This document shows, piece by piece, positions 28,182 through 29,398 of a stretch of DNA of 64,000 bases. The notes under the pieces are model-generated. The model saw nothing but the letters and a program-made list of their open reading frames with translations. It ran no database searches and was not told where the DNA came from. Source of the DNA: Tardibacter chloracetimidivorans (lineage in GTDB: Bacteria; Pseudomonadota; Alphaproteobacteria; Sphingomonadales; Sphingomonadaceae); assembly GCF_001890385.1 (NCBI RefSeq), contig NZ_CP018221.1, positions 372,001-436,000 of the forward strand, given 5' to 3'. Each line of letters begins with the position of its first letter. Position 1 is the first letter of the stretch. A program made the position numbers and the translations under genes.

Positions 28182-28946
28182 TCAGCCGTGCCCCGCCGTC
28201 ATCCAGATCGCCATGGCGATCATCATCAGGTTTTCGGTCAGCGAGACGAAGCCGAGCGGGACATTGCTCGATCCGCCCACGCACGCGCATTTCAGCTCCC
28301 GCCTGTCGATATAGACGGCCTTGAAGACGGATGCCGCCCCCACCGTGCCTATGAACAGCGCCACCGGCACGGAAATCCAGTTCATCGCGCCCGCCACCAT
28401 CAGCACGCCCGCCAGTCCTTCGGCAAAGGGATAAACATAGCTGTAAGGCGGCCAGCGCCGAGCGAGCAGGTCATAGTTCAGGAACATGGTCGCGAAGCTC
28501 CCGACGTTCTGGAGCTTCAGAAGTGACAGCACCACCATCGAAAAGGCGATCAACCATTCGGCGGCGCGAACGGTGAGCGCGCTCCCATATTCGGCGTGGC
28601 TCGCCGCCATCGCCATCAGCGCGGTCATGGCGAACAGCGCGATCACCGGGCGATAGCTCGTCGCCTCGGGATCGATGACCCGCTTGCCCAGGAAGCGGCG
28701 CAGATCGTCATGCCCGCCGATCCTTTTGCCGCCGATGAACACCTGCGGCGTGGTCCGGACACCGTGCTCGGCCTTGAAGGCGTCGGTCGCCTCGCGCGTG
28801 GCGAGGTGATGATCCTCCACCTCATAGCCTGCACGCTTCAGCAGATGTTTCGCCTTCAGCCCATAAGGGCAGACATGGTCCGGCATGACCATGCGGTAGA
28901 GAACTGCCTTTTTCGTGCCTGCCGGCTGGTTCGCCATGTCCGCCAT
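28182..28946 (-). CDS. Glutaredoxin-MauE fusion membrane protein
   Basis: A 254-aa protein with an N-terminal glutaredoxin-like domain (about 10-85) containing the redox motif CPYG and the cis-Pro GSH-site TTPQVFIGGKRIGG. A MauE/DoxX-like membrane domain of four helices follows, ending with an ECxCxGG-type pair (ELKCACVGGSS). MauE-type proteins support disulfide or redox maturation in the envelope. I prefer ATG 28946 because GGAG is 6 nt upstream; ATG 28958 lies four codons earlier. A MerR-type promoter sits directly upstream, so expression is probably induced by a thiol-reactive metal or oxidant. No other mer genes are present. Confidence 0.8.
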   Translation of the reverse strand: MADMANQPAGTKKAVLYRMVMPDHVCPYGLKAKHLLKRAGYEVEDHHLATREATDAFKAEHGVRTTPQVFIGGKRIGGHDDLRRFLGKRVIDPEATSYRPVIALFAMTALMAMAASHAEYGSALTVRAAEWLIAFSMVVLSLLKLQNVGSFATMFLNYDLLARRWPPYSYVYPFAEGLAGVLMVAGAMNWISVPVALFIGTVGAASVFKAVYIDRRELKCACVGGSSNVPLGFVSLTENLMMIAMAIWMTAGHG

Positions 28947-28977
28947 CTCAGTCTCCATTGTGTTCGGTCCGCTGCCG

Positions 28978-29008
28978 ATATAGGTTCCGTACCATGGTAC
29001 GGAATCAA
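28978..29008 (-). promoter_or_regulatory. MerR-type promoter with 19-bp spacer and mer-like operator
   Basis: Reading the minus strand, TTGATT (29008-29003) and CTATAT (28983-28978) are separated by 19 bp. This overlong spacing is the hallmark of MerR-activated promoters. The spacer holds a perfect 20-bp palindrome, TTCCGTACCATGGTACGGAA (28985-29004), matching the Tn501/Tn21-type mer dyad TCCGTAC-N4-GTACGGA. It drives the glutaredoxin-MauE gene and overlaps the merR-like start codon. Confidence 0.85.
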
Positions 29009-29398
29009 GAGGGCCGGTCGCTCACGATCGGAAAACTTGCCCAGGCGGGCGATGTGGGCGTGGAAACCGTGCGCTTCTACCAGCGCCGGGGCCTTCTCGA
29101 CACACCAACGCGCGCCCATGGCGTTCGGCGCTATGGGTCTGAAGATTTGCGCCGCCTGCGGTTCATCCGCCAGGCGCAGGCGTCCGGCTTCACCCTTGAG
29201 CAGATCCGCGAGCTTCTGGAGCTTGATGCAGGCGCGGATCGTGCCCGTGCGCGCACACTGGCGGAAACGCGCATCGCCGCGCTGGATGAGAAGATCGCGG
29301 AGCTTGAGCGCGCGCGCGACGCGCTCCGGCGGCTGGCGGCGCGCTGCCGGGTCGAGGATGGCCAGCCCTGCCCGATCCTCGCTTCATTCGACATGTGA
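28994..29398 (+). CDS. MerR-family metal/thiol-responsive regulator
   Basis: A 134-aa regulator with the MerR winged helix (LTIGKLAQAGDVGVETVRFYQRRGLL, RRYGSEDLRRLRFI), a dimerisation helix and a C-terminal cysteine loop. Aligned by eye to Tn501 MerR, the positions of Cys117 and Cys126 are kept in RCRVEDGQPC, but the Cys82 position is Arg. The loop is C-x7-C, as in CueR. DNA-binding residues and the operator look mercury-type, while the sensing site does not. ATG 28994 lies in the centre of the operator palindrome. A GTG at 28958 would be an alternative start. Confidence 0.85.
   Translation: MVRNQEGRSLTIGKLAQAGDVGVETVRFYQRRGLLDTPTRAHGVRRYGSEDLRRLRFIRQAQASGFTLEQIRELLELDAGADRARARTLAETRIAALDEKIAELERARDALRRLAARCRVEDGQPCPILASFDM

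Follow-up and report, generated by a model that had tools for sequence, protein, structure and literature searches.

An arginine-type MerR variant paired with a glutaredoxin–MauE membrane protein is a candidate sensor of copper-type ions

Two divergent genes in the window, the 64-kb stretch that we analysed (positions 372001–436000 of contig 1 of a 3.79-Mb genome), may form a two-gene module in which a sensor derived from MerR, responding to ions of the Cu(I)/Ag(I) type, serves one target, grx-mauE, the gene of a glutaredoxin–MauE (Grx-MauE) membrane protein. We infer the ligand, and we give the reading as a whole about an even chance. By the tests made, the regulator is a new, well-bounded MerR variant, neither a mercury MerR nor a CueR. 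The anatomy of the locus, its conservation, its one exact operator, the descent of the regulator and the copper neighbourhood were all read from sequence.

Regulator residues, conservation and descent

The regulator (28994..29398, forward strand, 134 amino acids) has the Pfam domains MerR_1 and MerR-DNA-bind and, with a DNA-binding domain and a long dimer helix, belongs to the MerR superfamily. Aligned to Tn501 MerR (PDB 5crl), our residue reference, it has Arg83 (codon 29240..29242) at the place of Cys82, whereas Cys is kept at 117 and 126, as Cys118 (29345..29347) and Cys126 (29369..29371). Cys126 stands seven residues past Cys118 and is followed by Pro, in a C-x7-C loop one residue shorter than that of Tn501 MerR. 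Realigning a Cys onto position 82 was considered and rejected: these two are the only cysteines of the regulator, which leaves none for that position in any alignment. In the predicted monomer (pLDDT 88.1), a long helix spans residues 83–119 and begins at Arg83. The model matched 5crl and 1q05 alike (Z 12.1), so a MerR and a CueR cannot be told apart by fold, and because the ligand site sits between two chains it lies beyond what a predicted monomer can show.

Class assignment gave a mixed picture. The best NCBIfam model was mercury MerR (TIGR02051), at 110 bits against a cut-off of 150.85, followed by ZntR and CueR (TIGR02044, 84.8 bits against 147.4); no NCBIfam cut-off was passed. Of the marks of a mercury MerR, the mer-type dyad in the target promoter is present, but Arg at 82 breaks the set of three Cys ligands (82/117/126) and linked mer transport genes were absent (MerT/MerP in 0/40 regions and none in the window). 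Of the marks of CueR, the C-x7-C loop is present in the window and in 96/96 relatives with an intact C-terminus, but Arg or His takes the place of the Ser at CueR position 77 (MerR 82) in 98/98, and the regulator does not branch with CueR proteins.

These counts come from two sets of related loci, which may overlap in species. The genome_contigs set comprises the best 80 of at least 541 Grx-MauE loci, some near-identical; the family set comprises 40 places in 39 genomes (one used twice) of the window's own family, taken as the best-scoring listed ones that allowed a control 300 kb away rather than as a random draw. A homologous regulator lies on the opposite strand in 70/80 genome_contigs loci (in L064 it is displaced by 1.4 kb) and a divergent one in 28/40 family places. 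Pooled, and with the window not counted, the two sets gave 98 regulator loci. Position 82 is Arg in 91/98 and His in 7/98, and both Cys with seven residues between them are found in 96/98, the exceptions being L013, whose reading frame is broken, and L026, which a contig end truncates. Seven other MerR-type proteins recovered by the same search in those loci all have Cys at position 82. The earlier note had described a MerR with Arg in place of Cys82 and a CueR-like C-x7-C loop, and had named an alignment placing Cys at position 82 as one of two possible refutations; the alignment to Tn501 MerR put Arg83 there, and the description holds for the window. Judged from these sequences, the lack of Cys82 is a trait of the whole group and not a quirk of one genome. 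The His-type loci (L024, L032, L046, L050, L062, L065 and L070) include Paracoccus, Hyphomonas and Rhodobacter records and offer a natural comparison for ligand choice.

Descent was examined in a maximum-likelihood tree of 52 proteins that took every third divergent regulator and was rooted at its midpoint, with some long branches. The Arg/His-type regulators formed one clade (34 rows, support 99/94) that joined the mercury MerR of Tn501 and pRA2 on a joint branch of 98/91; the Tn501/pRA2 pair itself had 96/57. CueR proteins, together with a CueR-like protein of the window's own genome, formed a separate clade (100/99). By this tree the regulator is sister to mercury MerR and apart from CueR, which assigns the CueR-like loop and the missing Cys to a mercury-side branch. 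The CueR-like regulator of the same genome (L086) has Ser at the position in question. A further MerR-type protein of that genome (L083, C5:71655-72023) has Ala at position 82 and a C-x8-C loop, and groups with Bacillus megaterium MerR; its contig also holds a CueR-like protein.

Operator, promoter and start codons

Between the two genes lies a putative operator, the perfect 20-bp palindrome TTCCGTACCATGGTACGGAA (28985..29004), whose mer-type label rests on comparison with the Tn501 operator sequence. The dyad was found in 98/98 loci with a divergent regulator, with 0–2 mismatches in the 12 half-site bases (0 in 60 loci, 1 in 31 and 2 in 7), which bears out the classical mer-type operator reported in the earlier note. 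A pattern search of the own genome (3.79 Mb) returned a single exact CCGTAC-N4-GTACGG and one further place at 1 mismatch, so the regulator most likely serves one promoter. The backwards control pattern had 15 matches at ≤1 mismatch in the same genome, so rarity of the dyad alone is no argument; its placement and conservation are. In the 40 control regions (800 kb), no dyad site was found at ≤1 mismatch. No second operators were found at the copper genes of the same loci, again at ≤1 mismatch. Extra sites at that threshold turned up at L064, where the regulator is displaced but the dyad still lies at grx, and at L123, where the site is unconvincing; the four plasmid sites were all at grx-mauE.

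Across the 98 loci, the promoter consensus reads TTGACT before the dyad and TATATt after it. We compared spacers in these 98 related loci, the window excluded, scoring the −10 element for its fit to TATAAT, the sigma-70 consensus. The best −10 lay 20 bp from the −35 as the only best choice in 64/98 and as a tied best in 26/98; the other 8/98 favoured 21 or 22 bp, or a 17/22 tie. A 19-bp spacer was never best alone and was tied in 2. The grx-mauE promoter of the window, on the reverse strand, has a −35 element TTGATT (29008–29003) and a −10 element TATATC (28982–28977), likewise separated by 20 bp. The 19-bp spacer that the earlier note had read here was therefore rejected in favour of 20 bp.

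The regulator start codon in the window, ATG 28994, coincides with the dyad centre, and a second open start (TTG 28958) lies upstream. Across the loci, an in-frame regulator start codon marks the dyad centre in 61/98 (window counted, L064 not), and in 17 of those 61 no alternative regulator start is open. A start codon at the dyad centre fits the conserved CATG centre, and the arrangement suggests that operator binding may also limit the regulator's own synthesis. On the other strand, the Grx-MauE reading frame runs to 258 amino acids from its first possible ATG (28958), but the likelier start is ATG 28946, as the earlier note implied, because GGAG stands six bases upstream of it.

Operator and regulator were also compared in the 22 Grx-MauE loci without a divergent regulator. 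In 19 of them no dyad was found (≤3 mismatches, 260 bases upstream), and the other 3 had weaker ones. With the dyad in 98/98 loci that have the regulator and absent in 19/22 that do not, regulator and dyad go together. The weak operators of L055, L067 and L074 are perhaps decayed, the divergent regulator missing as if lost; L004 holds a regulator remnant where the divergent regulator is missing, likewise as if lost.

The Grx-MauE target and its neighbourhood

The target (28182..28946, reverse strand) has Pfam Glutaredoxin and MauE domains and shares 73–81% identity with 34 relatives aligned from among the 80. Its CPYG glutaredoxin active site (28860..28871) and the CACVGG motif of its MauE part (28272..28289), both on the reverse strand, are invariant in the 35 aligned proteins. 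The earlier view of the target as a redox membrane protein rather than merT/merA is thus confirmed. In the predicted structure (mean pLDDT 74), the membrane part is weak and residues 221–233, which hold CACVGG, fall below 50; the better matches in a PDB search were glutaredoxins.

An N-terminal CPYG glutaredoxin followed by a C-terminal MauE domain is also what defines the SmGrx3 type (excerpt of PMC6315971), and the target has both. A copy on pSymA of Sinorhizobium meliloti 1021 is 80% identical over 241 amino acids and has the same divergent regulator, of the Arg type. By its match to the review's description (a pSymA-type gene name, CPYG and MauE), this copy is SMa0280 (SmGrx3; PMC6315971). 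As described there, recombinant SmGrx3 has low deglutathionylation activity, the Smgrx3 mutant had no phenotype under the conditions tried, the gene is tabulated with the stress 'HS' (which we read as heat shock) and not with copper, and its function 'remains to be elucidated'. An open-licence literature search, made by title, returned nothing on the Arg-type regulator and nothing that linked Grx-MauE to copper; the Cupriavidus copper and Gig systems, in the excerpt of PMC10304878, have no bearing on either protein.

Grx-MauE occurred in 150/298 genomes of the family sample and in 8/142 of the class sample (own genome counted in both), a patchy distribution. In some family genomes (L111 and similar loci), the module occupies a constant chromosomal position next to genes that by eye resemble ychF/pth, so there it is more than an island gene.

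We compared 40 family regions of 20 kb each with 40 same-genome controls 300 kb away. Strict copper markers were found in 12/40 Grx-MauE regions and 0/40 controls (P = 1.9e-4), in 6/28 regions with the regulator (P = 0.0034) and in 6/12 without it; 22/28 regions with the regulator had none. The strict count leaves out DUF305, which matched in one control region; with DUF305 counted, the comparison is 13 vs 1. MerT/MerP were found in 0/40 family regions and 0/40 controls, and the 64-kb window contained neither copper markers nor MerT/MerP. Marker-free clustering of neighbours, in which a crude gene filter dropped part of the genes and kept the regulator in 19/40 regions, ranked a CopA-like oxidase (named by eye and by the marker search) first among the families other than the pair, at 10 family vs 0 control regions; the next families reflect fixed chromosomal neighbourhoods.

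Among the 80 genome_contigs loci, whose neighbour clusters include shadow ORFs, the recurrent neighbours included multicopper oxidase, plastocyanin-type cupredoxin, CusF, DUF411, P-type ATPase, RND efflux and DUF305. Others had no metal link, for example an MFS-like transporter (by eye). Strict copper markers lay within 4 kb in 18/70 of these loci with the regulator, a count without a control set. The 80 loci gave a single MerP-like match, a weak one (L061). Plasmids gave a similar picture. In 13 annotated plasmid regions, hand-picked for variety from 294 records (PLSDB), copper genes surrounded Grx-MauE in 8/13, 5/13 had no copper resistance gene and mer genes were annotated in 0/13, as far as the incomplete PLSDB gene tables go. 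On three plasmids the module is surrounded by copper islands, and in one of these the regulator looks broken: pAt3 of Agrobacterium tumefaciens (L088) has the copper island, an exact operator and grx-mauE, while the regulator match does not extend beyond residue 82. Altogether, the neighbourhood suggests copper-type metals.

Loci without the Arg-type regulator were also informative. CsoR-type genes occurred in 7/12 family loci without the regulator vs 0/28 with it and 0/40 controls. Five of the seven lie 5' of grx-mauE on the same strand (L121, L131, L132, L136 and L140), three of these within about 40 bases of it; those of L126 and L129 are near grx-mauE on the other strand. A motif scan found Cys, His and Cys at +0, +25 and +29, the spacing of Cu(I) CsoR, in the proteins of these five 5' genes. 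The closest solved structures to the L140 protein, the one tested, were CsoR, and the best model for the three CsoR-type proteins tested was the copper repressor RicR, under its cut-off. The 10 genome_contigs loci without the regulator yielded no CsoR-type gene; among those with it, L042 has one weak CsoR relative, 3 kb away. Two plasmids carry an annotated CueR gene on the same strand as grx-mauE, one gene upstream. With CsoR-type and annotated CueR genes beside the target, known Cu(I)-sensing kinds take the regulator's place in part of the loci.

Ligand, mechanism and known systems

The dimer, DNA binding and untwisting, activation, the ligand, the charge argument and the work of Grx-MauE are what we infer beyond the sequence. 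A homodimer of the regulator would sit on the mer-type dyad in the overlong 20-bp spacer of grx-mauE and hold the promoter off; ligand bound through Cys118 and Cys126 would then untwist the promoter and turn grx-mauE on. Control through a spacer of 19–20 bp is established for MerR proteins (excerpt of PMC10028694). By descent the regulator stands on the mercury-sensor side, with Arg or His replacing the third Cys ligand to leave a two-thiolate site with CueR spacing. Its most likely ligand would be Cu(I), with Ag(I)/Au(I). In a bis-thiolate site with a monovalent ion, the charge would be balanced by the Arg, which would also disfavour Hg(II). As a glutathione-linked membrane thiol protein, Grx-MauE would help thiol/copper handling at the membrane.

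Published work on MerR-family sensors, as far as the excerpts go, bears on this choice of ion. The rule at position 82 is Cys for divalent and Ser for monovalent ions; the Ser of CueR is held to exclude divalent ions, and a Ser-to-Cys change admits them (PMC11591864). The two-cysteine site of CueR takes up Hg(II) but does not activate transcription (PMC6899792), and a chimera of MerR DNA-binding and CueR sensor parts, acting on a mer promoter, answers to Cu and Ag and not to Hg (PMC10028694). Together, these data suggest that a two-Cys site with Arg should favour a monovalent ion. The earlier note had left the choice between a monovalent metal, an electrophile and disulfide stress. A monovalent metal gains from the copper neighbours, the CsoR-type genes 5' of the target in 5/12 family loci without the regulator, CueR on two plasmids and the CueR loop length; electrophile or disulfide stress is kept as a rival.

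Several observations speak against copper. The own genome already has a separate CueR-like regulator (L086), next to which another Cu(I) sensor would seem superfluous. The copper linkage is at least as strong for Grx-MauE without the regulator (6/12), the window and most regulator regions (22/28) lack a copper marker, and 5/13 plasmid regions lack a copper resistance gene. Known monovalent sensors are said to have Ser, not Arg, at the position (excerpt of PMC11591864), and the review associates Smgrx3 with 'HS' and with a mutant free of phenotype (excerpt of PMC6315971).

Thiol stress is the main rival to a copper-type ligand, although we consider it unlikely. A Cys118–Cys126 disulfide or a modification (for example, glutathionylation) would be the signal, Arg83 would lower the Cys pKa, and the glutathione-linked target would restore thiol balance. 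A target that joins a CPYG glutaredoxin to a MauE membrane domain would suit such a response, as would a regulator whose only two Cys are close together, and Arg is not a usual metal ligand. The 'HS' entry for Smgrx3 (excerpt of PMC6315971) points the same way. However, the loop aligns with the metal-binding loop of MerR metal sensors, copper genes are among the recurrent neighbours, and CsoR-type and annotated CueR genes stand beside the target elsewhere, while the part of the neighbour clusters that was identified held no glutathione or electrophile genes.

Mercury is disfavoured as the ligand because there is no Cys82, MerT/MerP were found in 0/40 regions and mer genes in 0/13 plasmid regions. 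A sensor of mercury, or of thiophilic metals broadly, that used two Cys only would explain the grouping with Tn501/pRA2 MerR (98/91), the mer-type operator and the best NCBIfam model, and two thiolates can bind Hg(II); yet the third ligand is missing in 98/98, the 80 loci held a single weak MerP-like match, and the CueR two-Cys site binds Hg(II) without activation (excerpt of PMC6899792), which leaves such a sensor highly doubtful. The many loci without a metal gene nearby, and those with a constant chromosomal position next to ychF/pth-like genes (named from sequence), would accommodate another ligand (Au complexes only, a persulfide or a metal–glutathione complex) or a role outside metal and redox stress. 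Nothing specific was found in favour of this possibility, and we think it distinctly unlikely. A copper-type metal is our best guess for the ligand of the regulator, with about as much for it as against it.

More tentatively, and leaning slightly towards doubt, we propose that a change of ligand evolved naturally within the lineage of mercury sensors. A clade sister to MerR, which kept the mer operator and has a conserved Arg/His for the third Cys, may have come to sense Cu(I)/Ag(I) (or thiols) on behalf of a single target, SmGrx3-type Grx-MauE. With Arg/His in every copy examined and a mer-type operator, this wide clade offers nature's own test of the way MerR proteins evolve their choice of metal. 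It ties SmGrx3-type Grx-MauE, present in half of the family-sample genomes, to one regulator, one operator and a testable copper context. If the copper reading is true, this protein gains its first candidate role, in glutathione-linked copper handling at the membrane.

With MerR of Tn501 and pRA2 the regulator shares descent, fold, the mer-type dyad and two of three Hg ligands; it differs in the Arg/His for Cys82 and in a loop of 7 rather than 8 residues (Tn501), and its module differs in the 20-bp spacer, in its grx-mauE target and in having no mer genes seen nearby. With CueR and its kin, sensors of Cu(I)/Ag(I)/Au(I), it shares the C-x7-C-P loop, a third position without Cys and, in part of the module's loci, a copper neighbourhood; it differs in its separate clade, in Arg/His instead of Ser77, in its mer-type operator and in scoring under the CueR cut-off. 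The target shares with SmGrx3 (SMa0280) the CPYG glutaredoxin and MauE parts, and the pSymA copy has the same divergent Arg-type regulator; the literature searched held no regulator or metal link for SmGrx3. The closest parallel in design is the engineered MerR–CueR chimera (excerpt of PMC10028694), which likewise combines MerR-type DNA reading with a CueR-type two-cysteine sensor; that chimera is man-made, whereas the entire regulator described here falls on the MerR side of the tree, with Arg at 82.
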